DNA from: a virus
Reading direction: 5' to 3' (one strand)
Virus record (IMG/VR): IMGVR_UViG_3300027763_002499
Location: 1-64,000 of that record
Length of the DNA stretch: 64,000 nucleotides
Positions 8,566-64,000 of the stretch are shown in pieces (the stretch's first letter is position 1; each line of letters opens with the position of its first letter). The notes beneath the pieces are model-generated. The model was not told the origin of the DNA. It searched no databases and saw only the letters and a list, made by a program, of their open reading frames with translations. A program made the translations under genes and the position numbers.

Positions 8566-8792
8566 AAAAATAATGCCACGAAGCAGGGGAAACGAAAATA
8601 GTCAAATATCAAACGTCAAACATCTAGAATCAAACATACGCTTTTTGCTCAGATATACGATCAAACATCACTTTAATTATTTTATATCTGAGCAAAGCTG
8701 GATGAGTTAGTTTTCAAGACTAATTCAGTACTTGTGCATCGCATGAAGCGATACTATTATTTTCGCCTTTGCCCTGGACCAAGTGTGGCGGC
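8566..8792. other. non-coding region with 7-bp repeats and three hairpins
   Basis: No gene is seen here. It contains five consecutive 7-mers (8602-8636: TCAAATA, TCAAACG, TCAAACA, TCTAGAA, TCAAACA). A 14-bp perfect inverted repeat follows (8644-8657 with 8683-8696), then a 9-bp hairpin with one wobble pair (8703-8727) and a 5-bp hairpin (8738-8752). It could be a structured RNA, a protein-binding iteron region or a regulatory element. Confidence 0.6.
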
Positions 8793-9371
8793 TTAGTCTA
8801 GCCCAAGTTCAGACAGCACAAGTGCTACCTGTTCGGGTACTTCAATTTCTGTGCGGACATTGATACCGACCATTTCGTCCTTGATTTTGCGACGTCGACG
8901 ACGTATTGTTTCTAATTCTTTCTTTGCTGTTGCAATAGATTCAGCTGGCACAACGTTAACGTCAAGACTGTAATCACGACCGTAAATGCTAACTCGTTCG
9001 TTGTTGCTGTTGGCTTTTCGACTTTCAATTTCTGCGGCCAGCGCATCCAAGTTAGGACGAACCACAGCTTCACTAAATGCTTTTAAACGGGCCTCTGCAC
9101 TGGCCAACATTGCTTCTTCGGCAAGGTAATCTGTAATACCAACTTCTGCGTTCTTTTTAGCCACTACAGCACGTAAGAACTTGTTTGCGTTAAGCAACCG
9201 ACCAGCTTGTGCATGGTTTGTTTTTACCTTTGCCAGTTGTTCTTCTAAACGTGCAACAACATCTGTTTCAAACAAGCTGATTTTTACAGTTGTTTCTTCT
9301 GTGCCAAGACGTTTGATTTCGTCGGTGATGGTTTGCTGAACCACACTGGCCTTGCGTAGATTGATTTTCAT
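8793..9371 (-). CDS. hypothetical coiled-coil protein
   Basis: 192 residues, mostly helical with long Glu/Lys/Ala runs (LEEQLAKVKTNHAQAGRLLN, KKELETIRRRRRKIKDEM), predicted coiled coil. No catalytic motif. It has its own promoter and an AAGGAA site. A cytoplasmic structural or DNA-associated role is possible, but nothing in the sequence decides it. Confidence 0.7.
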   Translation of the reverse strand: MKINLRKASVVQQTITDEIKRLGTEETTVKISLFETDVVARLEEQLAKVKTNHAQAGRLLNANKFLRAVVAKKNAEVGITDYLAEEAMLASAEARLKAFSEAVVRPNLDALAAEIESRKANSNNERVSIYGRDYSLDVNVVPAESIATAKKELETIRRRRRKIKDEMVGINVRTEIEVPEQVALVLSELGLD

Positions 9372-9404
9372 GGGATTCCTTAGAAGTTTAAGTGTCTATG
9401 TGTT

Positions 9405-9433
9405 AGTATAACACCATCACTCATCATCGTCAA
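9405..9433 (-). promoter_or_regulatory. sigma70-type promoter
   Basis: TTGACG (9428-9433), 17-bp spacer, TATACT (9405-9410). The -35 box lies inside the end of the thioesterase-like gene. Confidence 0.75.
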
Positions 9434-9869
9434 GTACTTCTGGCAATTTTGGTAAGATATATTGAGCAGATATTTTTAACAAGGGCAAGCCCAATGGATC
9501 GTTGGCGTTGACACGGCCCACAATGTCAAATTCCAATCCATTATTGCTGGCAATATCAACTGTGGCAAATATCCAGCGAGGTATATTTGCTGTATGCATA
9601 AGTTTAATATCCAATTGTGCGGCCATAGGATATCTTTTATATTGGTTAAAAACTGTTTCTAATATTGCATGGTCCAACAATGACAAAATGGCTCCGTTGT
9701 GTATGGAGCCAAGTTGATTCTTGTGAAATTGGTTGCTGAACCAGGCAAAACTGCCAGACATTTCATCAATCTTATACCATAATGGCATAATGTTGCCAAT
9801 GAAATCTTGACGCTTTGTTCCCCTATATGTGTACCCAAGAAGTTCAAATGCCCCGGGAGTATATTTCAT
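9417..9869 (-). CDS. hotdog-fold thioesterase-like protein
   Basis: 150 residues. LGSIHNGAILSLLDHAILET near residues 53-72 matches the helix-start pattern (H-x-G-x...-L-x-D) of PaaI-type acyl-CoA thioesterases, and the following segment alternates beta strands as in a hotdog fold. It would hydrolyse or bind an acyl thioester. It is coupled to the end of the tail-fibre gene by an ATGA overlap, unusual company for a metabolic enzyme. Residues are compatible with activity but not proof of it. Confidence 0.5.
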   Translation of the reverse strand: MKYTPGAFELLGYTYRGTKRQDFIGNIMPLWYKIDEMSGSFAWFSNQFHKNQLGSIHNGAILSLLDHAILETVFNQYKRYPMAAQLDIKLMHTANIPRWIFATVDIASNNGLEFDIVGRVNANDPLGLPLLKISAQYILPKLPEVLDDDE

Positions 9870-11710
9870 GACCAGGAAGTTGTGCCGGAGATTTTAACCC
9901 AGATAAACGCATTGCCATCTGTGTAATCAGCATTGCAAATGTATAAATCAACACCATCAATGGAATAATCTCCACGTTTGTTAATGCTTGAACCATTAGG
10001 ACTGCTGGGTTTGTCAACCAAGCGTGTAGGAGTTGTGATAATACCAGTGTCTTCATTATAACTAATGCCACCTGTAGCACTTATTGAATGGCGGGCACGA
10101 GTTTGTGTAAAGTACAAGTTTGTTGTTCCGCCTTCGGGAATGTCAGCAGTACTTGGTTTGCTGGTTAGGTCTGCATAACTACCACTACGAGCAACTGAGG
10201 CTATATTAAGGTCAGGTTGATCGGCCAGGCTGTTATAGCTTCCGTTGAACAGAGTAGGTTTGTCCAGTAAATCATTATAACTACCACTTGTAGCAACTGT
10301 AGCAAAGCCAATGTTGCTTGTTTCTACACCATTTACAGAACTACCTGTAAATACAACATCCTCACCTGTAATTGTACTAGAATTAAAATCACTAACGCTT
10401 AATTTATCGTTAACATCTGCGGTAATTGTTGTTATAATTTCCACAGCATCGGCTATATCTGCAAGCTGTATGTTTACCCAATTTTGTGTTGCAACTTCTA
10501 ACACAGCCAATCTGTAATCAACCAAGGCATCTGAGTAGTATTTTTTACCACCAATTGCTGTACTTTCGGTTATATCATCAGTTGTAAGTCCCGACAGCGC
10601 AGATATAACTCGTGCGTTTGTAAAGTACAAGTTATTGGTGCCTTCTGTTAAGATATCAGTGGTCCTTGTCTCTAAAAACTCAGCAACTCTTTGATTTGTA
10701 TAATATTTGTTAGTGCCTTCGGTAATGTTAGTGGTTGTTGACCAATCTGGCCTGTTTGTTAAGTCGGTGTAGCTACCACTGAATAATTCTGGTCTGTTTG
10801 TTAAGTCGGTGTAGCTACCACTGAATAATTCTGGTTTACTTATTAAGTCTCCATAACGTCCACTGAATGCAACAGCTGACAAGTTTTCCAATGAATAACC
10901 ATAATTGTCCAGCATTGTGCCGCTGAAATCATCAACTGAATTGGTAACATCACCCCCATCTATATTGGTCGGGTCGTAGCTGTTGATAGCATTGTCAACA
11001 TATTCTTTTGTAACAGCTTGTTTGTTTGCTGTGATTTCTGAATTTAAATATACTGCATCAAACGTTGGCGCTAAATCATAGCTGATAACACCAGTTGAAT
11101 TATCATAACTCAGAAAAGATCCAAATGTACTAATTGCGTCACGTACTTTAGCATCTGTGTAATATTTGTTTGAGCCTTCGGCGATGTCTGTTGTAGTTAA
11201 TGTGACACTGCCAGATTTACTGTTAACAGAGGTAACACCGCCAACCACTGTGATTACACCAGTGGTGCTGTTATAAGAACCAGCACCTTCAACAGTTATG
11301 GCACTACGAGCACGACTATCTGTATAAAACTTATTTGTACCTTCGCTTAGATTTGTAGTGGTTTTGGTTGCAAACTGGGTGCTGAATAATGTATTAAAAT
11401 CGGCGGCCGAAACCTTTTGATTTATTTGTGCAATTATACTTGCGGCAAAATTTGGGTCATTTCCAATGGCAGTTGCTAACTCTTTTAATGTATCTAATAT
11501 AGTTGGAGCACCGTTTATAAGTGAGTTAACTGCTGAACTGATAGCCAGATTGACGTAGGTTTTATCTGCTAAATCTCTGTCTGATGTAACAGCATCAAAT
11601 AGTAAGTCGGCAGTGGTCTTTAGTGTTAGCCCAGATTGAAGCAAGATAAGTGAATCTTCTGTTCCAACACTACTGGCTGGGTTTAATTGGGAAATTTTTA
11701 CTATTGACAT
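9866..11710 (-). CDS. tail-fibre-like protein with EGTNKYYT repeats
   Basis: 614 residues, rich in Thr/Ser/Asn/Gly. It carries the repeated motif E-G-T-N-K-Y-Y-T-x-x-R/K-V/A-R and SGSYxDLTxxP units, including two almost identical 14-residue copies. These modules occur in trimeric tail fibres and also in the 14102-17236 product. The N-terminus (ISQLNPASSVGTEDSLILLQ) looks like a virion-attachment region. Probably part of the host-recognition apparatus. It is the last fibre gene of the structural operon. Confidence 0.75.
   Translation of the reverse strand: MSIVKISQLNPASSVGTEDSLILLQSGLTLKTTADLLFDAVTSDRDLADKTYVNLAISSAVNSLINGAPTILDTLKELATAIGNDPNFAASIIAQINQKVSAADFNTLFSTQFATKTTTNLSEGTNKFYTDSRARSAITVEGAGSYNSTTGVITVVGGVTSVNSKSGSVTLTTTDIAEGSNKYYTDAKVRDAISTFGSFLSYDNSTGVISYDLAPTFDAVYLNSEITANKQAVTKEYVDNAINSYDPTNIDGGDVTNSVDDFSGTMLDNYGYSLENLSAVAFSGRYGDLISKPELFSGSYTDLTNRPELFSGSYTDLTNRPDWSTTTNITEGTNKYYTNQRVAEFLETRTTDILTEGTNNLYFTNARVISALSGLTTDDITESTAIGGKKYYSDALVDYRLAVLEVATQNWVNIQLADIADAVEIITTITADVNDKLSVSDFNSSTITGEDVVFTGSSVNGVETSNIGFATVATSGSYNDLLDKPTLFNGSYNSLADQPDLNIASVARSGSYADLTSKPSTADIPEGGTTNLYFTQTRARHSISATGGISYNEDTGIITTPTRLVDKPSSPNGSSINKRGDYSIDGVDLYICNADYTDGNAFIWVKISGTTSWS
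10746..10829. repeat. 2 x 42-bp tandem repeat inside fibre gene
   Basis: Two copies of a 42-bp unit (one base different) encode the 14-residue fibre repeat. A third degenerate copy follows. It is in frame, so unit number could change by recombination without breaking the gene. Confidence 0.85.
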
Positions 11711-28361: not shown

Positions 28362-28700
28362 TTAAAATGGCATAGAAGGTGAAAAGCTACTGCCACACCC
28401 ACATGTTGTTTGAGCATTTGGATTATCAATTACAAAGCGACTGCCTGTAATATCATCTTTAAAATCAATGACTGCTGAGGATAGATATTGCATACTCATT
28501 GAATCAACTAGAATCTTAACACCATCTTGTTCTAATTCAAAATCATCTTCGTTTTTTTCTTCGTCAAATGTAAAGCCGTACTCCATACCGCTACATCCAC
28601 CACCTTGTACAAAGATACGTAATGGTAAGCTTGCATTGCCCTCATCAATGGCAATTTCTCTAACTCTGTTGATTGCTGAATCTGTAATTTTAATTTGCAT
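28362..28700 (-). CDS. A-type Fe-S carrier (IscA/ErpA family)
   Basis: 112 residues. It has the three conserved cysteines of the family: [14 protein letters not shown] (Cys36) and TTCGCGSSF (Cys100, Cys102). [19 protein letters not shown] precedes the tail, as in IscA/ErpA. It carries Fe-S clusters to target apoproteins. The phage encodes several radical SAM enzymes at 54.8-59.4 kb that need [4Fe-4S] clusters, a plausible reason to carry it. Confidence 0.9.
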
Positions 28701-28908: not shown

Positions 28909-29167
28909 TTATATGTTCCCCATATATTAATTTAGCAAAAATAGCATCATGCTCTTGCTCGAACAACATATAAGGCTTAGATTCTTGGTTAGGTCCTGCT
29001 TCAAACGCCCAGCCGCTCCAACCATGTGACTTTTCAACACAATCATCAATCATGAGCCCGGGAATTCCATCACCCTCTAGCTGTATAGCCCATACCTGGC
29101 TTGGTTTATCAGAGTCAAGTACAGAAAACACTTGATAGAAGCTGGATAATGGCACGTTCTTGATCAC
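28898..29167 (-). CDS. hypothetical protein (GTG start)
   Basis: 89 residues from a GTG at 29167 that overlaps the QueD-like stop as GTGA, with GAGGA upstream; an earlier GTG at 29188 lacks this support. It contains PSQVWAIQLEGDGIPGLMID and GWSGWAFEAG. Function unknown. Confidence 0.6.
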   Translation of the reverse strand: MIKNVPLSSFYQVFSVLDSDKPSQVWAIQLEGDGIPGLMIDDCVEKSHGWSGWAFEAGPNQESKPYMLFEQEHDAIFAKLIYGEHINVN

Positions 29168-29667
29168 GCAAACAAGTCCTCGTTCCACTCGCGATGGCCT
29201 TCGCGGAAAGCCATATTACTTTGTGTTTCTCTAACTTCAACCCGATAGCACCACAAGCGAGCCGCTTCACCTGGTCCCCACATCTCAGGAATATAAACTC
29301 CGTTAACATATTTGTACAACATGTCACTGAGACCTTCACAGCCTAATTTAGGAAGCACAACTACTTTTGCCATCTTCTTTTCTACTAACAAATTGTATGT
29401 TTCCATTTCCGGATCATCTTGCGCTACAATAAGTGTATGATCAAACTGGTCTTCTAACGTCTTTTTAAGTTCTTTAAGTCCTCCATAGTCTGCCGCCCAG
29501 TTACGAACGTCCAGATCATTGGTTCCGAAATAGAACTTCATGCTAAATGAATAGCCGTGGATTAGATTGCAATGGCTATCTGCTCTCCACTGTCGGTAAG
29601 CGCATGGAAATGCGTCATGGTACTCTTTTGTACTTGTGTATTTGTATACAACTGGTTGTAATGCCAT
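29164..29667 (-). CDS. QueD / 6-pyruvoyl-tetrahydropterin synthase-like protein
   Basis: 167 residues of T-fold type. SHCNLIHGYSF holds the active-site Cys33 and His37, FDHTLIV is the conserved D-H pair and VEVRET the late Glu. The family usually reads HGH, where both His bind zinc; here it is HGY, so one metal ligand is replaced. QueD makes 6-carboxy-tetrahydropterin for preQ0. Here no QueC, QueE or FolE is seen, so any role in 7-deazaguanine synthesis needs genes elsewhere or in the host. Confidence 0.75.
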   Translation of the reverse strand: MALQPVVYKYTSTKEYHDAFPCAYRQWRADSHCNLIHGYSFSMKFYFGTNDLDVRNWAADYGGLKELKKTLEDQFDHTLIVAQDDPEMETYNLLVEKKMAKVVVLPKLGCEGLSDMLYKYVNGVYIPEMWGPGEAARLWCYRVEVRETQSNMAFREGHREWNEDLFA

Positions 29668-51338: not shown

Positions 51339-52481
51339 TTACTGCTTTACAAAAATAATATTACCAAAGTCTGACATGATAGACCCGTTACGCTCAATGA
51401 TCCAATCTATCCACGTTGAATATCCATTTCTAGAATCTATAAAATTAGGATTTGAATATGCAATGGAACTGGTTTTATCTGCCAACGAAAATTTCTGAAT
51501 CCACACTCCCTTGTATAGGTCGCTTGCACCTTCAGAGCTTCCACCTGTTCTTAGAACATATATAGAATTTGTATTTTTAGAATATACAAAATCTAATACA
51601 ATCCTGGCTCCATCAACTGGGGGTATTACCATAGAAGGTGTACCAGTAAATTTATTATTACCGGGGTTTAGTTCAATCGCTGTTGGTTCAGCATAACCCC
51701 ATTCAATTGCACCATACACCAAATCAAATTTACCATCGTTGTTTACGTCAATGGCTTCAACTTGAAATACTGTTTTTTGTGTTGGTGGAAATGCATATTC
51801 ACTTGAGCGAACAAACTTGCCAGTCTTGTCATTTATATAAACAACCAGGCCATTGAATGTAGTAACAACAACATCAGGGTAGCCGTCGCCATTGAAATCG
51901 TTTGCACTGCCACCGTGATAAAAACCTGTGTCAGATTCCGATGCTGTAAGATAATCTGTCTTGTATCTACCATTGGATTGGCTTAACACAATACGATTGC
52001 GTTCTCCGGGAAAAGGCATAGTATCATATCCATGACAAACAATTACAAAGTCTAACACACCATCTTGGTTGTAATCTGCTGGTAGAACTTTCCTAGGATG
52101 GATACACATTGGAACAGATTCATCAACTATGGGATTTGTGGTCCACGATCCATTAACCTGTTTCCACATTGTTAATATTGCAGGAGGAGCATTGTTAGCA
52201 GTGTGACGATCCAAATAATAATTTAAGCTAGTGGTTATTAAACCTTGAGTATCATCATTATATTTGAAAAAGGAACGAGCATTAATTTGTTTATTTAATT
52301 GTAGTAGGTCTACATAAAATCCGGGATTCTTTGAGTTTTCGTAAGAACTTAAACTATATGTAACCTTTGCCGCGGGTGGTACTGGATCAACAACAGGAGT
52401 AACAGCCGCTTGTCCACCACCCCCGCCGCAGGCCACCAGTAGTGTTGCAAATAAACTAGCTAAAATTAGACGAAGTTTCAT
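51339..52481 (-). CDS. VCBS/FG-GAP-repeat lipoprotein
   Basis: 380 residues from the ATG at 52481. A signal peptide with lipobox LLVAC (Cys18), then a beta-propeller with repeats bearing D-x-N-x-D-G-x-x-D calcium loops: DYNQDGVLDFVIV, DFNGDGYPDVVVT, DVNNDGKFDLVYG. Exported, lipid-anchored, Ca-binding surface protein. Its own strong promoter suggests expression independent of neighbours, as for a moron; superinfection exclusion or host adhesion is possible. Confidence 0.75.
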   Translation of the reverse strand: MKLRLILASLFATLLVACGGGGGQAAVTPVVDPVPPAAKVTYSLSSYENSKNPGFYVDLLQLNKQINARSFFKYNDDTQGLITTSLNYYLDRHTANNAPPAILTMWKQVNGSWTTNPIVDESVPMCIHPRKVLPADYNQDGVLDFVIVCHGYDTMPFPGERNRIVLSQSNGRYKTDYLTASESDTGFYHGGSANDFNGDGYPDVVVTTFNGLVVYINDKTGKFVRSSEYAFPPTQKTVFQVEAIDVNNDGKFDLVYGAIEWGYAEPTAIELNPGNNKFTGTPSMVIPPVDGARIVLDFVYSKNTNSIYVLRTGGSSEGASDLYKGVWIQKFSLADKTSSIAYSNPNFIDSRNGYSTWIDWIIERNGSIMSDFGNIIFVKQ

Positions 52482-52512
52482 AAAATCCCCAAATTGGTTT
52501 AATATAAAGGTT

Positions 52513-52541
52513 ATTATACTCAAATTTATGAAACTTGTCAA
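52513..52541 (-). promoter_or_regulatory. sigma70-type promoter
   Basis: TTGACA (52536-52541), 17-bp spacer, TATAAT (52513-52518), with a leader holding GGGGA before the 52481 ATG. It is one of the two closest matches to consensus in the window. Confidence 0.85.
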
Positions 52542-53376: not shown

Positions 53377-54834
53377 TCAATATACTGGTATATTATGTAG
53401 ATTTTGAAATTTCAGTGCATCATCCCAGGTGTTTACCAAGGGCTCACCTTTGATGTTAAGGCTTGTATTCATTAATACAGGACAACCGCTTTTTCTGTTC
53501 CACTCTTCCAATAATGTTCTAAAAGTTATATTGTCATCTTTTGATACAGTTTGCACCCTACTTGTTCCATCTACATGACAAACTCCAGGCAGTTCACCGC
53601 TGGTACACTTTGCTACAAACTGCATATAAGGACTAGAGGACACAGGCATGTCAAAGTATGCACCAGCATGTTCTTTTAGTACTGCTGGTGCAAATGGTCT
53701 AAACTGTTCTCGCTTTTTAATAGCGTTCATTCTAGACTTGGCTTTGGGTCCACGCGGGTCACATAGTAGACTACGATTGCCTAACGCTCTTGGTCCAAAC
53801 TCTGCTCTGCCATTTGCTACTGCTACTACTTCTCCTGCCTGTAGACGTTTGACCACAGCATCAATGTCAAGTTCACGTTCAATATCTGTGCCAAGATAAG
53901 GATGCTTCCATGTCAAGTGCTCTTTGGTATGTACGGCAACTGCTCCAATAGCACTACCAGCATCACCAGGGTTAGGCATGATCCAAATGTTGTCAAAGAC
54001 TTGACTGCGAGCAAGCCTAGCATTGGCAACACAATTTAATGCCACTCCCCCCATGAACACAAGATTTTTGCTCTTGATATTCATGCTCATACCAATTACA
54101 GTTTCTATCAGGTAATCTTCAACTATGCTCTGAACACATGCGGCAATATCAAACTTATTGGTGTTTAATGGTGCAGTCCACCAACGACATCCGCGATGTA
54201 AGTTATGTCTTAGTTTAAAATCTGGTGCTTCAATATATTCAAAGAATTCATTCTTAATATGGTTTTTAAGAACTAGGTCAACAGAACCATATGCTGCCAT
54301 GCCCATAAGAATGTATTCTTCTTCGTTGGGCTTTAGGCCAACATAATCAGTAAATGCTGTGTAAAACAATCCAATGCTATTGGGATAACGCTGTCGCCAT
54401 TTACACTTTAATTTATTTGCCTGACCTTCCCAGATGCTAACAGTATCCCATTCACCAATGGCATCAACTACAAGTACTGCGGCATCACTGTATCCGCTTG
54501 TGTAGTATCCAGCTGCCGCATGACTATGATGGTGTCCAACAACCTCCATTGGCAAATTATCCAACCCAACAAGTTTGAGTTGATCTTGAGGATTTACAAT
54601 CCAAGGTCTTTGTCCCGAGTAAAGTCTACGCAAATTCTTAGACCAAGGCTTTTCAAACCATACAATTTGAGTTGGTTCGCCGTACTCACGCATTTCACGC
54701 ACCATGTTAACATCTAACATAGTATCGTTTTTCTTTCTGCTATAGCGTTCGCTGTGCCCTGCCCAGAGTATTTTATCTCCATCAATCAGTGCCATACTGG
54801 CATCATGATTCTGGGCAGTGATACCCAGAATCAT
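53377..54834 (-). CDS. carbamoyltransferase (NodU/TobZ/CmcH family)
   Basis: 485 residues. ILGITAQNHDASMALIDGD and the metal motif HHHSHAAAGYY in the Kae1-like N-terminal half, FMGGVALNCVAN and the C-terminal RAEFGPRALGNRSLL (carbamoyl-adenylate transfer). It makes carbamoyl-AMP and transfers the carbamoyl group to a hydroxyl. In phages, homologues carbamoylate 5-hydroxymethylcytosine; other members modify sugars or antibiotics. It is last in transcription of the modification cluster. Confidence 0.9.
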   Translation of the reverse strand: MILGITAQNHDASMALIDGDKILWAGHSERYSRKKNDTMLDVNMVREMREYGEPTQIVWFEKPWSKNLRRLYSGQRPWIVNPQDQLKLVGLDNLPMEVVGHHHSHAAAGYYTSGYSDAAVLVVDAIGEWDTVSIWEGQANKLKCKWRQRYPNSIGLFYTAFTDYVGLKPNEEEYILMGMAAYGSVDLVLKNHIKNEFFEYIEAPDFKLRHNLHRGCRWWTAPLNTNKFDIAACVQSIVEDYLIETVIGMSMNIKSKNLVFMGGVALNCVANARLARSQVFDNIWIMPNPGDAGSAIGAVAVHTKEHLTWKHPYLGTDIERELDIDAVVKRLQAGEVVAVANGRAEFGPRALGNRSLLCDPRGPKAKSRMNAIKKREQFRPFAPAVLKEHAGAYFDMPVSSSPYMQFVAKCTSGELPGVCHVDGTSRVQTVSKDDNITFRTLLEEWNRKSGCPVLMNTSLNIKGEPLVNTWDDALKFQNLHNIPVY

Positions 54835-56904
54835 TTAAATACCCTTCCACTTACTAACTGGAATGTCGCCGCCACAGTGGCAACGCAAACTATTACAGAT
54901 AACCGGGCGAGAAAAACTGTCCCAATTAATTTTATCAAATTCTTTTACAGAGCCAACAACACCGCCTACATCACAATTTCCACGTTTGATATGTCCATTT
55001 TGATGAATGAATAAACTTTCAGCACCAATGTTGCACAAGTAATCATAGAAGTTTGTCTGTCCTTTGTTGATTAGACCCTGAGGACTTGTTATGTTTTCAG
55101 TGGTGTTATCTTCAAAGGTTGCTTGGACAGGAGTTGCATGGAAATCTCTATATATTGGATTGGTTATTCTAATCAAATCAGCAGATGATCGACTTGGTGT
55201 TTCTTTAAATGTTTTAAAAAATTCAAGTTGTTCTTCGCTGTAATTAATTTTAGCCAACTTGGTCCTGCTTGCACCATACTGGTCGTCGATATAAACAATT
55301 TCAATTTTAGCAGTAGTTTTCTTTTTAAGTTTTTCAATGAACTCTATAGATTTATCCCAATGCAACGGATCCATCATAATACGAGCCGCAACTTGAGTTT
55401 CTAAACTGGCAATTTTAATTTTTTCCAACCATTCATCTGCTGTACCATTGGGAAACTCTTGTGCTGGATGAAAGCTACATGCCGCATAAGTCAGATATTT
55501 AAAATTATCTTTAATAAATCTTGGAGTACGCACAAGATTTGTAGTCATACCACCGGTACCACCAAGAGTGTGAATACGCTCAATCATCTCCGGGAAGAAA
55601 GGACTTAGCGTAGGTTCTCCACCGCTCAATGAAAATGTCAAATGCCGGTTCTTGCCATATTGTTCAAATAACCTGTCAAGGAAAGGAGAAACAACATCCC
55701 AGTTAAACAAATGGTTTTTTCCATCGTGTAATACTGGTGGGCAATACCTACAAGCATAATTACAAATGTCATTTAAGATCCAGGTAATGATTGCTTTGTC
55801 TTCATTCTTAATTTCAATGATCTTTTTAGCCTGGACTGGGATTGGAAACTTCCACTGCGGAATACGTGCTCTTGGAGTTTTAAATGCTGAATGCATTTGT
55901 ATGTTGTCAACAATCTGTACATCTTGGATGCTTTTAAATCTACTTAGGTCTTTCTTCAAGCCATGTGATGCAGAATATAATGTATCTCGTTGTTCACCTA
56001 GCATGTGCCCAATGCCCATATACCCATGGCGATTGTCTGGATGAGACCATTTGTGTCCTTGTATGCCATCAATGTTTAATGCTTTGAATTTTTTATATTC
56101 ATTTGTAAGTGTATATGGATCATAATCGTCATATACAAGATACGCGGCCATTTCATTAGACCATGTTTCCTGACGATAAAAGGCATTTTCGTCAACAGCT
56201 CGTTGGTCATTATCAGCAATAATGTGACTCATGTTTTTACCAAGAGTATTATAGCCTAGTACCAAGTCGCCAAATCTAAGCCTGTGTAAAAAGCTGGCTG
56301 CATCCTCTTCGGTAATTTCAAAATCAATCCTTGGATTGAAACTGATCAAAATATTGGCAGCAGAATAACTAGGTTCCTTTTTGCCTGATCCTCTTTTTTT
56401 AATAAACATTTCAGCAGTGTGAATAGCATCGTTCAACTGAATGAATGTACTGTGAAAATCCTCATTGAAGGTAATACCTGGCCAACACTTGGCTTCTGGG
56501 CTGTCTGCTGAAATGCGTTTATAAGCATCATCCCACCATTTTTGTGATAGCTTTTCGCTTAGACGTTCACCATAAATCTCATATTCCTCGTGGAGGTAAT
56601 TTAGTGCATCTTGATCGTGTTCTCGAAACATTGTCAATGGGCGGTCATAAAAAAGATTAATTTTTCTAACAATATTACTCAAACGCTCATCAAGATCCAA
56701 TCCTTGATAGGCCGCACTCCTTGTAAACTTAATGCGCTTTTCTCGAAAACTTTTCTCTCCGTAACGCATGTCTTCCATGAGCTTGACCCATTTCTTGGCA
56801 AGATTGGTATTGTACAGCTTATAGTATATGTCAAAAGGTTCCCACGTTGTTGTATCAACAAGCGTGAGCCGTACGTTTTTGTCGTTTAGATATTTTCCGC
56901 TCAT
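54835..56904 (-). CDS. radical SAM enzyme with large N-terminal extension
   Basis: 689 residues. The radical SAM motif CNYACRYC (Cys381, 385, 388) is followed by FSLSGGEPTLSPF, then a Cys-rich C-terminal SPASM-like part (GNCDVGG, CNSLRCHCGGD). The first 370 residues (LNDKNVRLTLVDTTTWEPFD ...) are unlike any domain I know. A [4Fe-4S] enzyme that makes a 5'-deoxyadenosyl radical. Substrate unknown; peptide or nucleoside are both possible. Confidence 0.85.
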   Translation of the reverse strand: MSGKYLNDKNVRLTLVDTTTWEPFDIYYKLYNTNLAKKWVKLMEDMRYGEKSFREKRIKFTRSAAYQGLDLDERLSNIVRKINLFYDRPLTMFREHDQDALNYLHEEYEIYGERLSEKLSQKWWDDAYKRISADSPEAKCWPGITFNEDFHSTFIQLNDAIHTAEMFIKKRGSGKKEPSYSAANILISFNPRIDFEITEEDAASFLHRLRFGDLVLGYNTLGKNMSHIIADNDQRAVDENAFYRQETWSNEMAAYLVYDDYDPYTLTNEYKKFKALNIDGIQGHKWSHPDNRHGYMGIGHMLGEQRDTLYSASHGLKKDLSRFKSIQDVQIVDNIQMHSAFKTPRARIPQWKFPIPVQAKKIIEIKNEDKAIITWILNDICNYACRYCPPVLHDGKNHLFNWDVVSPFLDRLFEQYGKNRHLTFSLSGGEPTLSPFFPEMIERIHTLGGTGGMTTNLVRTPRFIKDNFKYLTYAACSFHPAQEFPNGTADEWLEKIKIASLETQVAARIMMDPLHWDKSIEFIEKLKKKTTAKIEIVYIDDQYGASRTKLAKINYSEEQLEFFKTFKETPSRSSADLIRITNPIYRDFHATPVQATFEDNTTENITSPQGLINKGQTNFYDYLCNIGAESLFIHQNGHIKRGNCDVGGVVGSVKEFDKINWDSFSRPVICNSLRCHCGGDIPVSKWKGI

Positions 56905-56924
56905 AAAGTCCTCAAATAATGTTT

Positions 56925-58157
56925 TTATATATCAAGTAATCTGGCATGCGTTGTGCCATGTAATTCATCTAGCCCGTTTACATAATCCAACATTTGTGGA
57001 TATAAATGGCTCCAATCTTCGCTATTCATAAATGATATTAGGCCTGTAAATCTAGAAACAAGTTTGTTATCAGGATGTTTATCTATATATTCTTGTAACT
57101 TCTTGGTAATTTTTTCTTTTTTGTCTGCAGGCAATGATTTAGAACACAGGTATGGTGGCCAGTGCAAAATGCCCAAGAAGAAAATGCCACCTTTATTGTC
57201 ACGTTTAATCTTTTCCAAATCTAAACTCATCATCCAATCTGCAAACTCTGGCAACCAGTTAATGTTTAAGGCCTGCACTGTACACAGTACCTTGACATGA
57301 ATGTTTTCTGGCAATTCACAGTAGGCCTTAAAGTTCTTTTCAATGGTTGCCCAATCGGCCGGATGACGAATATATGAGTTAACCCAATCGTATCCATCAA
57401 TACTGAGCATGAGTTCTACTTTTTCAAAGTGTTCCCACAGCTCGACAATTTCAGGACTATAAATTGTACAGTTGGTGTGATATCGCAATTCAATGTTCTT
57501 AGACAGTCCACTTTCAACCAAGCGTTTGATTAGTGTTTTGTGTTCTTTAATATAAAGAGGCTCGCCACCGCCAAATATAATATGTTTGATGTCTTTGGCA
57601 TGTGTAAAGAAATCATCCCAGAATTCTTCATTTTTATACCATTCAAACTTTTCACTGGCAAATGTTTCAATCTTATGCTTCCAATCATATCGAGCATCAG
57701 TTTGTAAACTATTGCTGAGTGTTTCTGCATCCTTGATCCACTTGCTGGAATCTTTGGGCCCACACATGACACATTGTAAATTGCAAGTATTACCTAGTCG
57801 TAGGTCCAAGGTTATAATGTCATGATTAACTGTGCCATTTTTGTTGGTGCCAGCAACTAAATTGTCAAGATATGTTGTGTCTAACTGTTGATACCAATAA
57901 TGGTTTTCATTTTGTCTATGACTTTTAATACCATTTGCTTCTTCTTTGTAGCAGGCTTCGCAAGCAGGAAACTTACGACCGCCAAGCATGGCCAGTCTGG
58001 CTTCTGTAAAATGATTACTGTTCCATATCTTGGTCCAATTGCTTGTATTTAAATTTAGACCACTGGTCTTGGCCACACAGCATAACAATGCTGAACCGTC
58101 GTTATAAGTTGCCGCATGTATCCATGGGAGAATACAAAATGTATCAGATTTTACCAT
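56925..58157 (-). CDS. radical SAM enzyme, N-terminal twitch/SPASM type
   Basis: 410 residues. An N-terminal Cys-rich auxiliary-cluster part (FCILPWIHAATYNDGSALLC, CEACYKEE), then CNLQCVMC (Cys125, 129, 132), FGGGEPLYI and LMLSIDGYD. Same architecture as the 58144-59448 product and clearly homologous to it. Likely acts on a shared or related substrate. Confidence 0.85.
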   Translation of the reverse strand: MVKSDTFCILPWIHAATYNDGSALLCCVAKTSGLNLNTSNWTKIWNSNHFTEARLAMLGGRKFPACEACYKEEANGIKSHRQNENHYWYQQLDTTYLDNLVAGTNKNGTVNHDIITLDLRLGNTCNLQCVMCGPKDSSKWIKDAETLSNSLQTDARYDWKHKIETFASEKFEWYKNEEFWDDFFTHAKDIKHIIFGGGEPLYIKEHKTLIKRLVESGLSKNIELRYHTNCTIYSPEIVELWEHFEKVELMLSIDGYDWVNSYIRHPADWATIEKNFKAYCELPENIHVKVLCTVQALNINWLPEFADWMMSLDLEKIKRDNKGGIFFLGILHWPPYLCSKSLPADKKEKITKKLQEYIDKHPDNKLVSRFTGLISFMNSEDWSHLYPQMLDYVNGLDELHGTTHARLLDI

Positions 58158-59448
58158 TAATGAAATCCACTATTCTCGAGTCAAGAACTGTATAGTCCTG
58201 TTTCCTTGCACTATCCAGGCTCTTGGTGTAAACTTGTAATCGTGCAAGTTGTTCTTGCCAATCTTCTGCTCTTGTTTGCTGTAGTAATCCTATTATACCA
58301 TTAACGCTGTTCTTTGTCAAGTCATGAACATTCCATGGCATCTTTTTATCTCTATAATCTGTTAACATTTTTAGAGCAGTGGCTCGCAGACTATCTGGTA
58401 GTATGTTCACATTCAAATGATGTGGATGTATGTTGATTAATAAATCAACAAATATCTTCTTACTGTATTTCTTGTTAAGTTCGTCAACCCAGGTCAGTGT
58501 CTCGACTAAATTAAATACATTGTAAACTTGTACCGTTGGAGTAACGCCTAGCTTAATGTTAGGTAATGCGGCTAGTTTTTCAACATTGACTTTGAGCTGG
58601 CTCCATTTGCTAGGAGGACGAATGTATTCGTTGACAGCACCAATGCCATCAAGACTTGCGTTAATGTTAATTTCATCAAATTGGCTAATCAAGTCTGTAA
58701 ACTTTTGATTTACGTTTGTACAGTTGGTATTAAAGAATAACAGTATATCCTTTCTGCCTTGATCAATACACTCCTGCATAAACTTAAAGTTATGCTCAAT
58801 CAATGTAGGCTCTCCGCCTGTCATGTAAACTTTTTTAAGATCTGGAATTAATTTTATAACCTGGTCCCAAAGCAAATCGCTTTCAAACCATTCCTGGTTC
58901 TTCATTACAGCTTCGGGGAACTTGCCAAATGTCTTGCCCCAAACCTTACTATACTCGCTGTCTGCAATTACAATGTCCTTGTGTTCTTTAGCAATCTGAC
59001 TAGAGTTCCAGGGATTGCACATGCGGCATTTTAAATTGCATAGATTGCCTAATCGCAGGTCTAGATATACAATATCCTTGTTTACTACGCCTCCGTTCAT
59101 CTTGGCAAATCTTACTCGTTGTTGTAGTTCCTCTTCTCCGAGACGCCAAGCCCATTCATTGTTGGCATGCATGCGATTGCTTTCACGACCTGATTCCTCT
59201 TGTAGGTAGCATGTACTGCAACCCTCAACCCGATCACCTTGTATCATAGCAGTACGAATGTCTCGCATGTCTTTGCCATTCCATGCGTGTTCTATAAACT
59301 GGTCCTGGATTGTAAAAAATTTACCATCTTCTTTTTTGAGTTTGTTAGCAGAACCCTTTACCATACAGCAATAACGAACTGTGGTATCGGTATTCACCAT
59401 CATACTAACAAACGGGATGGCACAAAATGTATTTGAAATTGGTTTCAT
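58144..59448 (-). CDS. radical SAM enzyme, N-terminal twitch/SPASM type
   Basis: 434 residues. TFCAIPFVSMMVNTDTTVRY then CSTCYLQEESGRESNR (N-terminal cluster Cys), radical SAM CNLKCRMC (Cys137, 141, 144), YMTGGEPTLIEHN, and NINASLDGIGAVNEYIRPPS. Overlaps the next gene by 14 nt. The paired genes may be an enzyme duo or two specificities. Confidence 0.85.
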   Translation of the reverse strand: MKPISNTFCAIPFVSMMVNTDTTVRYCCMVKGSANKLKKEDGKFFTIQDQFIEHAWNGKDMRDIRTAMIQGDRVEGCSTCYLQEESGRESNRMHANNEWAWRLGEEELQQRVRFAKMNGGVVNKDIVYLDLRLGNLCNLKCRMCNPWNSSQIAKEHKDIVIADSEYSKVWGKTFGKFPEAVMKNQEWFESDLLWDQVIKLIPDLKKVYMTGGEPTLIEHNFKFMQECIDQGRKDILLFFNTNCTNVNQKFTDLISQFDEININASLDGIGAVNEYIRPPSKWSQLKVNVEKLAALPNIKLGVTPTVQVYNVFNLVETLTWVDELNKKYSKKIFVDLLINIHPHHLNVNILPDSLRATALKMLTDYRDKKMPWNVHDLTKNSVNGIIGLLQQTRAEDWQEQLARLQVYTKSLDSARKQDYTVLDSRIVDFINGKI

Positions 59449-59490
59449 TAAACTAAGATTTAACTTTAATAGCTTTACTTAGTGGTTTTA

Positions 59491-59512
59491 GACTGGGCAG
59501 ATCTGCCCAGTC
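59491..59512 (-). terminator. perfect palindrome between 59515 and 59448 genes
   Basis: An 11-bp inverted repeat without spacer, GACTGGGCAGA / TCTGCCCAGTC. It follows the stop of the 498-residue gene. The leftward T tract is poor, so it could attenuate rather than stop transcription, or bind a protein. Confidence 0.5.
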
Positions 59513-59514
59513 TT

Positions 59515-61011
59515 TCAAGATGTGCGAGATTCTTCTTGAGTAACTTGGTCTCGCCAAGTGTAATTTAGTACCTTGCTTGCAATTGTGTTGTTATTAAAAT
59601 CAACCAATTCCATCTTGTAAACATCATCATAGTTAAACAGATCGAGCATGATACTTTCGGTACTATCGCTGGAATCCCAATCGCTTCTTATTATTTGAGC
59701 CACTGGGATTTTACCAATGCTGGTAAACTTACTTTCTGGATCAACATTTCTTTCTCGTAACCAAGGAAACATTTTGTTGTTTAAATTATTAATAACTTGC
59801 GTTTGTAAATCACGGCTATGTTCTTTTAAGAACATTACATTACATTCACCGCTAAGGTAACGTAAACCACTTATATTCTCATCGTGGATCTCGCCATCTT
59901 TGTCGTGATAGGCTTCAATTGGTGTTTTTCCAAGTTGGCAATAGTGTAAAAATACATCACCAAAAAATTCATATTGTGTAAAATTGTCAAAGTCGCTTTC
60001 AACGAATTTGTAACGCCTGACTGGCATTGCAGGGAAAAAAACATAAGAACTCCAGAATCCTTGTCCAATTTTGTTTTGTCTGCAACCTTCTATTTCATGA
60101 CATAGGTTATTGAGTTGTCTAATTGCAAACATCACGGGCAATGTTGCATTGGCAAAATACTTGGCTGGATTCCATACTTGCCCTATCAATAGCTCAAAGT
60201 GATGATGAATCTCATTAAGAATCTGTTGATCCAGTGTTACAGGATCAAAGAATTGTGTAATGTTATATAACGGGCGTTTTTCTTCATCACTACCGTCAAA
60301 GTATTCATTGATTGTGTTTACATACTTGTTTAATTCACTGCACAATGCTGGTATATTTCTTGCAACAGGACTGTTATCTGGGTACTGCCAATTTTGCAAC
60401 ATAAAATTCTTTTCAAATGTAGCATTGTCATCTGCCAAATAGTCATTGTGACAGCATCTTGCCCATTTTTGTGCAATAAAAGATGTATTAATTCTAAACC
60501 TTACTTTTTTTGTTTGGTTGTTGGCAACTGACCTGAAAGTCAATTGAAATTCATTGTAATTGGTATTCTTATATGCATTGCCGATTTTTTCTACGGTAGA
60601 ACCATCTGTGGTAATTTCTGAACTAAACAATCTGGCCTGGCGCACCTGTTCAACATGGTCATAGTCTGCCAACCAAAGAAAGTTGTTTACATGGCATTGA
60701 GATTCTAGGTCATCAAAAAATTCCCGGCTGTCAGCAATAAAGAAAGACTTGTATATACTGTTACAATATGCCCAAAATTCGTCAAATTTCTCCCTGCTGT
60801 TGAAATAATGAATTAGGTTATCAACTTTGCCGTTGGGACTTGCCAACGCTTCTTTAATAAAGTTGATTTCACTTTCAGCATCGCATAAAAAAATTAAACG
60901 AGTATTTGAGGCCTTTTGCAAGGTTGCAAAAGCCAACAGTCCGGGTAAAGATATACCATAGACATAATAGTTTTCAACATAGGTTTCGGGATTTGTAAAT
61001 TGTGTCAGCAT
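59515..61011 (-). CDS. unknown 498-residue protein of the modification cluster
   Basis: The N-terminus (YYVYGISLPGLLAFATLQKA, TRLIFLCDAESEINFIKEAL) suggests a Rossmann-like part. The middle has FDPVTLDQQILNEIHHHFEL and ARNIPALCSELNKYVNTINE. The C-terminus includes GECNVMFLKEHS. No motif I can name. It lies between radical SAM and SGNH genes, so it may be the substrate-binding or scaffold partner. Confidence 0.7.
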   Translation of the reverse strand: MLTQFTNPETYVENYYVYGISLPGLLAFATLQKASNTRLIFLCDAESEINFIKEALASPNGKVDNLIHYFNSREKFDEFWAYCNSIYKSFFIADSREFFDDLESQCHVNNFLWLADYDHVEQVRQARLFSSEITTDGSTVEKIGNAYKNTNYNEFQLTFRSVANNQTKKVRFRINTSFIAQKWARCCHNDYLADDNATFEKNFMLQNWQYPDNSPVARNIPALCSELNKYVNTINEYFDGSDEEKRPLYNITQFFDPVTLDQQILNEIHHHFELLIGQVWNPAKYFANATLPVMFAIRQLNNLCHEIEGCRQNKIGQGFWSSYVFFPAMPVRRYKFVESDFDNFTQYEFFGDVFLHYCQLGKTPIEAYHDKDGEIHDENISGLRYLSGECNVMFLKEHSRDLQTQVINNLNNKMFPWLRERNVDPESKFTSIGKIPVAQIIRSDWDSSDSTESIMLDLFNYDDVYKMELVDFNNNTIASKVLNYTWRDQVTQEESRTS

Positions 61012-61014
61012 AGA

Positions 61015-61116
61015 TTAATAGATAAATGGGTCACGCTTTTTCAGCTCTTTGAGTCGTTTTCTGTAGCGAATTTCGCCTTTGATTTTTTCAATAATATTTT
61101 TAATAAAATTCCACAT
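61015..61116 (-). CDS. 33-residue basic peptide ending KRDPFIY
   Basis: It reads MWNFIKNIIEKIKGEIRYRK and ends KKRDPFIY. Strongly basic, amphipathic. AGGAAG stands 7 nt upstream. Small basic proteins ending in D-P-F-I-Y seem common in T4-like marine phages. Lying inside the modification cluster, it could be a leader, a peptide substrate or an unrelated gene. Confidence 0.6.
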   Translation of the reverse strand: MWNFIKNIIEKIKGEIRYRKRLKELKKRDPFIY

Positions 61117-61127
61117 TGTGTTTCTTC

Positions 61128-62018
61128 CTATAGTGAATATTTGGAGACAAAGTAATTATACACATTGTCGGCTGCTATATCGTGTATATATTCCATGACA
61201 TGGCCGCCGATCCTGGCCACTGCCTTGTTTGCATCTTGTTTTTTTGCAATATCTTCTAAGTCTATTAGGTAGCCAATATCTAATTCTTTGTAAAGCTGTT
61301 GTATTGCCCAATTTATTGATGATGGCGGTTCTCTAGATCCTGCCAATTCAACTAACCAATCTGGGGCCATTTCGGTGACTGATCTTACAAAATACAGTTC
61401 AATCCCTTTGCTTTGGCAAAATGTTTTTAGCAATAAATTAGAAAGCAACCACTTGTGTAACCGCACATCTTCATGTTCGTGCATTATCGCAGTTTTGCGT
61501 ATAGCATCAATTTGTGTACCAGTGCGAGCAGGTTCATTGCTTAACAAAATAGAAGACCAATAATTAACTGTTTCGTTAAAGTATTGAATCCTATTGACAC
61601 TGGTAGTTCCAATTAAGAAAATTACTCGTTTGCCTTGTGTTCGCCCGTGTTTTGTTTCGTTTAAGTATTGGTCAATAATTTCTCTGTTGATCCATTCTTG
61701 GCTTGCACCACCGCATGCATAATTATGTACAGTACATTTCACACCAGGGTGGTTAGAAAGTCTCATTGCAATTTTAGCAGGATAGGCCCTGTTACGGTTT
61801 TCGTTCATTAGACTATCTTGTTGTTCCCGGGTAAGTTTGGTATTATTTTTACGTTGAAACCACGCCTTTACCATATTCTGTCTATTTACTTTGTTGTCAA
61901 TTCCTCGCCACTCATTGAACGTTATATCTTCATGACCAACATTGGTGTAAAATAAATCATCAGACAGCTCTTCGCCAGCTGTAAAGCTATCACCACATGC
62001 AAAAATTACTATTTCCAT
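61128..62018 (-). CDS. SGNH-like protein, tandem copy 1
   Basis: 296 residues. FACGDSFTAGEELSDD gives the GDS block (Ser11). NYACGGASQEWINREI supplies block II/III G and N, and a late GGHVMEYIHDIAAD the His. So an SGNH hydrolase fold is likely, perhaps an esterase or acetyltransferase. It is a duplicate of 62033-62920. Confidence 0.7.
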   Translation of the reverse strand: MEIVIFACGDSFTAGEELSDDLFYTNVGHEDITFNEWRGIDNKVNRQNMVKAWFQRKNNTKLTREQQDSLMNENRNRAYPAKIAMRLSNHPGVKCTVHNYACGGASQEWINREIIDQYLNETKHGRTQGKRVIFLIGTTSVNRIQYFNETVNYWSSILLSNEPARTGTQIDAIRKTAIMHEHEDVRLHKWLLSNLLLKTFCQSKGIELYFVRSVTEMAPDWLVELAGSREPPSSINWAIQQLYKELDIGYLIDLEDIAKKQDANKAVARIGGHVMEYIHDIAADNVYNYFVSKYSL

Positions 62019-62032
62019 TTAATTCTCTTGCT

Positions 62033-62920
62033 CTATAATGAATACTTAGCAACAAACTCGTTGAAGATTTTATCAGCAGCCATATCATGTATGTATTCTA
62101 CAAAGTGGCCGCCGGGTTTGACAATATGAGCATTTTCATCTTGTTCTTTGGCAATGTCTTCTAAGTTTATTATATAATTAATGTCTAGTTCATCAAACAG
62201 AGATACAATAGACTGTCCAATAAAAGATTGTTTCTCGCCAATTGCAATAGGGTTGACCAAGTTTTCAGGACCAAATACTGACCTTACAAAATATAAATCA
62301 ATGCCTTTACTCTGACAAAATGTTTTTAGTAGTAGATTACAAAGCAACCACTTGTGTAAACGTGCATCTTCATGTTCGTGCATTATTGCAGTTTTACGTA
62401 TATCATTAATTTGAGGTGTGATGCTATCTGTTATGTGCAACATAATAGAAGACCAATAGTTAACCGACTTACTGGTACTAAAATATTGAATCCTATTAAC
62501 ATAGGTAATGCCAACTAGAAAAATTACTTTTCTGCCCTGTGTTCTTCCGTGTTTTGTTTCATGCAGGTACTTGTCGATAATTTCCCTGTTTATCCATTCT
62601 TGTCCTGCGCCGCCTGCGGCATAATTGTGTAACACACATTGACCATTCAATTTTTCAGATAGTTTTGTATATAATTTAGCAGGATAAGCCCTTCTTAAAT
62701 TCTCTGCTTCTAGATTATATTTCTGCTCTGCGGTTAGTTTGTGATTATTTTTATGCTGGTGAATTGCTTGTATACGTAACGTATTACTTTTTTGACTTTC
62801 AGGATCTATCCATTCTTGATGTGTAAGATTACCAAGTCCCGAATCGGGGTAAAACATATCATCGGCCAACTCATCACCAGCAGTAAAACTATCGCCACAA
62901 GCAAAAACTACCAGTTCCAT
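62033..62920 (-). CDS. SGNH-like protein, tandem copy 2
   Basis: 295 residues with FACGDSFTAGDELADD, NYAAGGAGQEWINREI and GGHFVEYIHDMAAD. About half the residues match copy 1, and whole stretches (ETKHGRTQG, MHEHED, RLHKWLL) are unchanged, so the duplication is fairly recent or both are under strong constraint. Confidence 0.7.
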   Translation of the reverse strand: MELVVFACGDSFTAGDELADDMFYPDSGLGNLTHQEWIDPESQKSNTLRIQAIHQHKNNHKLTAEQKYNLEAENLRRAYPAKLYTKLSEKLNGQCVLHNYAAGGAGQEWINREIIDKYLHETKHGRTQGRKVIFLVGITYVNRIQYFSTSKSVNYWSSIMLHITDSITPQINDIRKTAIMHEHEDARLHKWLLCNLLLKTFCQSKGIDLYFVRSVFGPENLVNPIAIGEKQSFIGQSIVSLFDELDINYIINLEDIAKEQDENAHIVKPGGHFVEYIHDMAADKIFNEFVAKYSL

Positions 62921-62923
62921 GAT

Positions 62924-63661
62924 TTACATTATTGCTTTTAAACTATCTAATACAATTTGATTGAATGGATCGCGGGCACCGCCATGACTGATCATGTGAA
63001 TTCTAGGTGTGTCACTGTTGTTCCAGACTGAGTGCAGGTTTCCAATATCTACCAAGCAGGCATTGCCTTCATTTTTAAAAGGAACATAACCCTTGCCTTC
63101 CATTTTAAAATTACAACCCGCTGGATTGTTCAATGCTACATTAATTGGCAACAAGAAGTGTTCATTTCGATCCTTATGTGGCTGAATGTAACCGTGTGGA
63201 TCTAACCACATGTAACGTAGTCTGTGATATCTGTGATTTGGAAACACATCGAGGAAGTATCTTGTTGTTTCGGGACAACGTTCGGTTATCTCGCCGCACC
63301 AATGATAATTGATATCATCAATGGTTTTACCTTTGTTATCTTCATATGCTTCCCAATGTCCAGTTCTGTCCCAGGCCTCACCATGCAAACAAATACTCTT
63401 CCATCCTTTATTTGCATATTCTGGGTTTTCATTTGGATGTGTTCTGTGCATCTGGAAAAGATCTTCCATGGCAAATGCTTCACGCAACATGTCTGCAAAC
63501 GGTGCACCTGGAAGAATCAGTGGCAAGTAAGGCCACCCACTTTTCATAATGATCCAATCAACCAATTCATGTTCATGCTCAAACTTTGGTAATTCTACTT
63601 TTTTAAAATCCATGGTCCATGGACTATCATTGAAAAATTCTACAATTGCTTTTGGTATCAT
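62924..63661 (-). CDS. Asp/Asn beta-hydroxylase-like 2OG/Fe(II) oxygenase
   Basis: 245 residues from the ATG at 63661, which overlaps the upstream TGA as ATGA. Metal motif HGYIQPHKDRNEHFLLPINV (H-x-D) then LVDIGNLHSVWNNSD (second His) and TPRIHMISHG (2OG-binding Arg) fit the aspartyl/asparaginyl beta-hydroxylase family. It would hydroxylate a side chain, or a nucleoside, with O2 and 2-oxoglutarate. Confidence 0.75.
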   Translation of the reverse strand: MIPKAIVEFFNDSPWTMDFKKVELPKFEHEHELVDWIIMKSGWPYLPLILPGAPFADMLREAFAMEDLFQMHRTHPNENPEYANKGWKSICLHGEAWDRTGHWEAYEDNKGKTIDDINYHWCGEITERCPETTRYFLDVFPNHRYHRLRYMWLDPHGYIQPHKDRNEHFLLPINVALNNPAGCNFKMEGKGYVPFKNEGNACLVDIGNLHSVWNNSDTPRIHMISHGGARDPFNQIVLDSLKAIM

Positions 63662-64000
63662 TTTATTACATTTCCTAGGTGTGTCCAACCAGATATGCCA
63701 GAGCTTGTTGTTCCACATACTTGTATGCTGGTATTATTTAATCGTAGTTCCTGTGAAAAAGAATCATACACTGACTTTAACCACGCTGGTTTAAAGTGGC
63801 GTAGGCTTGCCTCAGTGTAGAAACTATTACTGAACCAAATTAAATTATTGCCTGGATGTTGACGCATATCAGCAATCAATTCACTGCGATCGTAATACAG
63901 GTTAGTCTTTAAGAATCTATGCTCAAGTGCTCTGTATCTGTTCCATATGTCTAACCAGGCGGATTCTCCGCCAAATACTGCAATGGTTTTTTCCCACTCA
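63658..64000 (-). CDS. unknown protein, truncated by window edge
   Basis: The C-terminal 113 residues, open at the right edge. It includes KTIAVFGGESAWLDIWNRYR and NNLIWFSNSFYTEASLRHFK. Possibly a methyltransferase- or FkbM-like protein by feel of the sequence, but no motif is diagnostic. It heads or extends the modification cluster. Confidence 0.6.
   Translation of the reverse strand, partial: EWEKTIAVFGGESAWLDIWNRYRALEHRFLKTNLYYDRSELIADMRQHPGNNLIWFSNSFYTEASLRHFKPAWLKSVYDSFSQELRLNNTSIQVCGTTSSGISGWTHLGNVIK

Follow-up and report, generated by a model that had tools for sequence, protein, structure and literature searches.

We analysed the first 64,000 bases (the window) of the uncultured virus record IMGVR_UViG_3300027763_002499, which is 90,548 bp in full, and found that a gene cluster at its right-hand end belongs to a minus-strand operon running past the window edge to position 75404. 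The operon encodes ten radical S-adenosylmethionine (SAM) enzymes, an O-carbamoyltransferase, proteins sharing a domain here termed RAD, a 461-amino-acid (aa) protein, a 2-oxoglutarate (2OG) oxygenase, two SGNH-like proteins and a 33-aa microprotein. We propose, with a probability of roughly 45%, that it is a phage tailoring pathway decorating a surface polymer, most likely a glycan on tail fibres or on the host envelope. Counted for this reading are the operon structure with its intact motifs, the recurrence of the gene set in other phages, the domain fusions among its members, and the solved relatives of the carbamoyltransferase, which modify hydroxyl groups of sugars or antibiotics; linkage to tail-fibre, glycosyltransferase-like and polysaccharide-export genes favours a glycan or fibre at the surface. 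The conserved set, with its fusions and tail-fibre neighbourhood, offers a testable pathway with defined subunits.

Extent and content of the operon

Reading to the right of position 64000, as the sequence-only reading of the window had suggested, extended the cluster to a span of 22,028 bp (53377-75404), about twice the length first described, with 17 tightly packed same-strand genes and one microprotein gene at intergenic distances of −61 to +116 nt, a strand and spacing which suggest that they would be read as a single transcript. The eight full genes and the edge-cut gene noted in that reading all lie on the minus strand where it placed them, and the motifs it named are present (radical SAM CxxxCxxC, the carbamoyltransferase domains PF16861 and PF02543, HxD at residues 181-183, and GDS at residue 9). 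The listed genes are thus real, but the 33-aa gene at 61015-61116 had been overlooked, and the three radical SAM enzymes, a correct count for the window, become ten for the whole operon. Because the ratio of nonsynonymous to synonymous polymorphism (pN/pS) was 0.06-0.31 across the 15 gene pairs compared between this operon and that of a relative, G001, the open reading frames (ORFs) are coding and not chance. The genes are as follows, in transcription order and in positions of the record.

74142-75404, minus strand: radical SAM enzyme 1 (N_Twi), first in transcription order
72489-74084, minus strand: radical SAM enzyme 2 (N_Twi)
71122-72492, minus strand: radical SAM enzyme 3 (N_Twi)
69777-71132, minus strand: radical SAM enzyme 4 (N_Twi)
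68561-69790, minus strand: radical SAM enzyme 5 (N_Twi)
67234-68583, minus strand: radical SAM enzyme 6 (N_Twi)
65978-67234, minus strand: radical SAM enzyme 7 (N_Twi)
65047-65991, minus strand: 314-aa RAD protein (hhalign)
63658-65043, minus strand: 461-aa protein, of which only the C-terminal part (63658-64000) lies inside the window
62924-63718, minus strand: 2OG-Fe(II) oxygenase, 264 aa (PF05118, HKD at 181)
62033-62920, minus strand: SGNH-like protein a, 295 aa (GDS at residue 9)
61128-62018, minus strand: SGNH-like protein b, 296 aa (GDS at residue 9, PF13472 E 0.038)
61015-61116, minus strand: microprotein, 33 aa, MWNFIKNIIEKIKGEIRYRKRLKELKKRDPFIY (conserved in relatives)
59515-61011, minus strand: 498-aa protein, Rossmann plus RAD (hhalign, AlphaFold)
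58144-59448, minus strand: N_Twi_rSAM no. 8, 434 aa (NF033640 352 bits; L071 ortholog 59%)
56925-58157, minus strand: N_Twi_rSAM no. 9, 410 aa (NF033640 370 bits; L071 ortholog 58%)
54835-56904, minus strand: RAD-radical SAM fusion, 689 aa (PF04055 31.8 bits; hhalign of N-half)
53377-54834, minus strand: NodU/TobZ-type O-carbamoyltransferase, 485 aa (PF16861, PF02543), last enzyme of the operon

Radical SAM enzymes, the RAD domain and their recurrence in phages

Nine of the ten radical SAM proteins pass the N_Twi_rSAM model NF033640 at 258-370 bits (cut-off 170), and motif listing found the N-terminal auxiliary-cluster cysteines together with CxxxCxxC in all nine, and CxxxCxxC and GGEP in all ten. 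The tenth, the 689-aa fusion, reached only 16.4 bits against the same cut-off and passes PF04055 alone (cut-off 29.5), with CxxxCxxC at 381 and GGEP at 428. The nearest same-genome paralog of each N_Twi protein is 26-37% identical, while a distant phage supplies a reciprocal best hit at 40-63% identity for every one of the nine, suggesting that these enzymes are old and separately maintained, not recent copies. Their auxiliary domain matches the aminocyclitol dehydrogenase BtrN, which we count for the proposed pathway, and no biochemically characterised NF033640 member was found. In bacteria, loci with a lone N_Twi gene have housekeeping neighbours that give no functional hint, and loci with several have slightly more GDSL, 2OG and sugar-type neighbours, at counts too low to be firm about this.

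The 498-residue protein, which the sequence-only reading had called unknown, indeed has no family hit, but it shares domains with its operon neighbours. The RAD domain links three proteins at hhalign probabilities of 91-98%, spanning residues ~150-490 of the 498-aa protein and the N-half (residues ~1-340) of the 689-aa fusion and being present in the 314-aa protein too; that N-half matches the 314-aa family at 97.6% and the 498-aa family at 90.9%, and the two halves of the fusion are separate genes in the relatives G002 and G003. Invariant RAD positions, in 498-aa numbering, are N235, H269, F272, N301, H305, Y357, G361 and D372. The Rossmann domain of the 498-aa protein (residues ~5-116) has a homologue in the 461-aa protein, namely its C-domain (hhalign E 4.7e-8), and 764-766-aa proteins of G002 and G003 look like a 461-type protein and RAD in one chain (E 1.5e-7). 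AlphaFold gave a confident model of the 498-aa protein (predicted local distance difference test, pLDDT, 89.8; predicted template modelling score, pTM, 0.90), for which Foldseek, queried with the full-length chain and so with the Rossmann part included, found no PDB match at E≤0.001 and ten uncharacterised phage proteins in BFVD. The 461-aa model was weaker (pLDDT 78.7, pTM 0.58); its N-half resembles the GT-A folds of LH3, COLGALT1, mimivirus R699 and ADP-glucose pyrophosphorylase (E 6e-5 to 1e-3), and its C-half is modelled as a Rossmann/methyltransferase-like fold. Neither the 498 family nor the 461 family gave a significant hit in profile searches of the PDB.

The RAD and 461 families appear almost confined to viruses. 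The 498-aa, 689-aa, RAD and 461 sequences had no tblastn match among 50,697 phage records, and a pattern scan of GTDB genomes did not find RAD; profile matches in one Bacteriovoracaceae contig and two metagenome-assembled genomes (MAGs) indicate that RAD is not strictly viral, although some of these may be phage DNA. Agrobacterium phage Atu_ph07, named by a fold match, gave no RAD hit by profile. In five short contigs (L008-L012) a lone RAD gene stands beside T4-type structural and packaging genes and a nuclease, in an order read from sequence, and no N_Twi gene is present; RAD may therefore have a role outside the tailoring cluster too.

The sequence-only reading had proposed a search for conserved gene order in other phages, which showed that the families of the cluster do co-occur there; that homologues never occur together can thus be set aside. 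G001 is syntenic with the operon at 63-93% amino-acid identity for most genes, in G002 and G003 the radical SAM genes, RAD and 461-RAD fusions are retained at ~35-47%, and radical SAM, RAD, 2OG and 461 genes recur together in L068-L071 and L073, in the order N_Twi - RAD - 2OG - 461 or near it in L068, L070, L071 and L073. More broadly, many uncultured phages share the combination of radical SAM, RAD, 461, 2OG, carbamoyltransferase and SGNH genes. Fusions across these clusters, namely RAD-radical SAM (689 aa), 461-radical SAM (813 aa, L068) and 461-RAD (764-766 aa, G002/G003), tie the parts together. Among 12 relatives picked independently through the clamp loader, a gene unrelated to the cluster, four carry N_Twi genes; in the three examined the island contains the same N_Twi orthologs and is framed by the same genes, and two of the three also have SGNH and carbamoyltransferase genes. 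N_Twi was over cut-off in 18 of 24 RAD-bearing virus records, but the idea that the two are always together failed on four N_Twi-bearing relatives, so that the link is frequent and not obligatory.

The 2OG protein is of the aspartyl/asparaginyl beta-hydroxylase type (PF05118, 45.5 bits against a cut-off of 22.6), with an HKD metal site at 181-183, 93% identity in G001 and a pN/pS of 0.07. Both proteins earlier called SGNH carry the GDS motif, but Pfam support is weak for one (protein b, 14.9 bits, E 0.038, below the PF13472 cut-off of 32.9) and absent for the other; given the motif, the two paralogs may still act as SGNH/GDSL hydrolases. The G001 relative of protein a (58%) is the single SGNH gene of that phage's cluster. 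Far from the operon, two sulfotransferase-like genes and a third SGNH-like gene were read from sequence (2437-3174, 5983-6714 and 4244-5077), and their homologues occur in other clusters.

The carbamoyltransferase and the DPFIY microprotein

The carbamoyltransferase matches PF16861 (E 7.5e-56) and PF02543 (E 2.1e-49), both above cut-off, and its nearest solved chains are decarbamoylnovobiocin carbamoyltransferase, GdmN and TobZ; it is not the NodU nodulation equivalog NF041651 (138.7 bits against 1000 required). Those O-carbamoyltransferases act on antibiotics, whereas the enzyme here is paired with a microprotein and phage genes.

Phage carbamoyltransferases with the same Pfam domains carbamoylate 5-hydroxymethylcytosine (5hmC) in DNA (PMC8670742), which, with a QueD-like gene at 29164-29667 (minus strand; 94% identical in L065 and L068), would fit a hypermodified base such as carbamoylated 5hmC. 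We regard this as highly improbable. The known 5hmC enzymes co-occur with a thymidylate-synthase homologue, a pairing reported only in contigs with modified DNA (PMC8670742); unlike in those phages, eight related records, one of 244 kb, contain neither PF00303 (thymidylate synthase/hydroxymethylase) nor PF00145 (C5-methyltransferase); the thymidylate-synthase search gave 0/8 with positive controls in 9/14, several of the records being fragments, and a Tet_JBP search had no positive control and carries no weight. Of the products offered by the sequence-only reading (a glycan, a modified base or a peptide), the single tailoring cluster stands, the base is disfavoured, and the glycan and protein readings stay.

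The microprotein gene is preceded by a ribosome-site-like AGGAAG, and its product, which ends in KKRDPFIY, is conserved in G001 and eight other clusters, with a pN/pS of 0.11 between this phage (G000) and G001. A search of viral contigs in IMG/VR for the pattern KKxDPFIY returned at least 80 loci; the counts that follow hold among the matches listed. The pattern closes a short ORF in 76 of the 80, mostly of 27-51 aa with the end KKRDPFIY(K) and often near SGNH genes as well, and beyond the motif fixed by the search, E at −10 and K at −14 are conserved. In the DNA examined, a carbamoyltransferase gene accompanies the microprotein in 49/76 loci and an N_Twi gene in 13/76, and many loci have no radical SAM gene. 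In 47 loci with both genes, all 47 pairs are on the same strand and 28 are immediate neighbours, a closeness matched by 0 of 2000 random placements. In 23 tabulated loci the microprotein was present in 8/9 with a carbamoyltransferase and in 2/14 without one in the DNA examined (one-sided Fisher p ~7e-4, computed by hand). Judged from sequence, the microprotein family is widespread in phages and tied to NodU-type carbamoyltransferases, and it gives these enzymes a concrete partner adjoining them in dozens of uncultured phage contigs. It had no tblastn match among the 50,697 phage records, where the low-complexity filter may hide matches, and the motif is not mentioned in the open-access literature searched.

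A conserved small gene under constraint, with a C-terminal DPFIY and ten radical SAM enzymes nearby, might instead encode the precursor of a ribosomally synthesised and post-translationally modified peptide (RiPP), processed by those enzymes and the carbamoyltransferase into a small peptide. No other gene fits such a precursor. A RiPP is quite improbable, given that the microprotein tracks the carbamoyltransferase and not N_Twi, that clusters without a carbamoyltransferase mostly lack it, and that its C-terminus is constant, whereas a RiPP usually has a conserved leader and a variable core. In addition, Pfam and NCBIfam scans of the cluster proteins gave no hit to a RiPP recognition element (RRE; PqqD-like) domain.

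Candidate substrates and neighbouring genes

N_Twi clusters lie directly downstream of a tail-fibre-like protein and three small glycosyltransferase-like genes in L099, L100, L102, L103 and L107/L113, and in L069 this set lies on the opposite strand, next to RAD-2OG-461. The tail-fibre-like label comes from weak matches to PHROG families for tail fibres and virion structure, and the glycosyltransferase-like label from reading of the sequence, with no Pfam hit for those small genes. L099, L100, L102, L103, L107 and L113 are filed under MAGs (Rickettsiales, Verrucomicrobia, Betaproteobacteria, Pelagibacter) and look like phage DNA by their genes. Elsewhere, RAD/N_Twi genes stand beside genes read as a 3-deoxy-D-manno-octulosonate (KDO)-type synthase and a CMP-KDO-type synthetase (L031/L034) or as a sugar nucleotidyltransferase, a sulfotransferase and a kinase (L028/L030), and in the Bacteriovoracaceae contig L101, N_Twi and RAD genes and a 934-aa fusion of carbamoyltransferase and radical SAM stand near ABC-2 polysaccharide export genes with Pfam support. 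We also count for the pathway the host-recognition clusters of the marine, T4-like pelagimyophages, which have a tail-fibre neighbourhood and differ by radical SAM cassettes (PMC7029224), and the Vibrio phage isolate K566, in which N_Twi genes lie amid glycosyltransferase-like genes; no RAD, 461, carbamoyltransferase or microprotein was found in K566.

Taking these observations together, we suggest that each N_Twi enzyme would carry out a C-H modification of its own, on either the polymer or the sugar donors for it, with RAD proteins as docking or substrate-binding subunits. The 461-type protein, with its GT-A-like and Rossmann parts, would transfer or prepare a sugar, the 2OG enzyme would hydroxylate, the carbamoyltransferase would cap a hydroxyl with the DPFIY microprotein as partner or acceptor, and the SGNH proteins would add or remove acyl groups. 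Such decoration would likely serve to alter receptor binding, to protect from the host or rival phages, or to exclude superinfection. A bolder version, which we think unlikely, is a phage-specific machine in which RAD proteins, of a fold unseen in the PDB, pass a single substrate to ~10 specialised radical SAM enzymes one after another, and in which the carbamoyltransferase depends on, or itself modifies, a dedicated DPFIY microprotein; if true, both the chemistry and the biological role would be new.

Several points weigh against a decorated surface glycan. The enzyme activities are predicted and the chemistry of the cluster is deduced throughout; no sugar-nucleotide gene lies inside this record's cluster; the GT-A-like domain of the 461-type protein has no obvious DxD motif; the tail-fibre neighbours belong to other phages, the fibre-like genes here being ~36 kb away; and RAD was not detected in the four N_Twi-bearing relatives, where a more divergent form could be missed. 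Moreover, the SPASM/twitch radical SAM enzymes characterised so far mostly have peptide or protein substrates. The main rival, to which we give a minor share of belief, is that tail fibres or other virion proteins are modified at side chains by C-H chemistry, hydroxylation and carbamoylation, with no glycan. The tail-fibre-like genes that stand directly upstream of N_Twi clusters, or beside them, in six contigs fit this as well, SPASM/twitch radical SAM enzymes and Asp/Asn hydroxylases usually act on polypeptides, and the 461 N-domain is structurally related to, among others, collagen hydroxylysine glycosyltransferases; the lack of an RRE-type domain hit in the Pfam and NCBIfam scans and the sugar-type neighbours in several clusters speak against this rival.

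An IscA-type iron-sulphur (Fe-S) carrier gene lies at 28362-28700 (minus strand), and IscU/IscA-like genes were read from sequence in G001-G003, as if these phages supplied Fe-S clusters for their own radical SAM enzymes. A Fe-S supply like that described for marine phages rich in radical SAM genes (PMC5332604) could also point to auxiliary metabolic genes whose enzymes change a host metabolite or cofactor during infection. We consider such host-directed metabolism improbable, since the carriers could simply mature the phage's own enzymes and the RAD and 461 families are nearly restricted to phages.

Earlier reports (2010, 2017, 2020) described phages rich in radical SAM genes without giving these a function. 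In the T4-related Campylobacter phages CP220 and CPt10, which encode 11-12 radical SAM proteins, five belong to an interchangeable module without an assigned function (PMC2853527), but the CP220 proteins are not N_Twi (≤30.9 bits against 170) and show no RAD match, making them a different set from the nine divergent NF033640 paralogs in this one operon. The marine T4-like TARA_ERS488813_N000010 has 12 radical SAM genes and Fe-S assembly genes (PMC5332604). The linkage of N_Twi, RAD, 461-type protein and microprotein is not named in the parts of PMC7029224 and PMC5332604 covered, a distinction by description and not by sequence; HTVC008M and P-SSM2 have no N_Twi and no RAD. We found no earlier description, in the open-access literature, of the RAD and 461-type proteins, of fusions involving them or of the pairing of microprotein and carbamoyltransferase.

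Further genes of the record flank the operon. Upstream, two long fibre- or adhesin-like proteins that combine SBBP beta-propeller repeats with a Gly-rich domain (L003:5483-7621 and 8444-10540; record ~85483-90540) were seen, the first with PF21722. Downstream, a secreted-type DNA/RNA non-specific endonuclease gene (PF01223; 52544-53380, minus strand) is possibly in the operon transcript because it shares 4 nt with the end of the gene for the carbamoyltransferase. Next to it, an FG-GAP repeat protein with a lipoprotein-like N-terminus (51339-52541, minus strand), which has no homologue in the examined parts of G038 and G039, has homologues near RAD genes in G001, G002, G003, L026 and L014, and may be a surface target or an exclusion factor.

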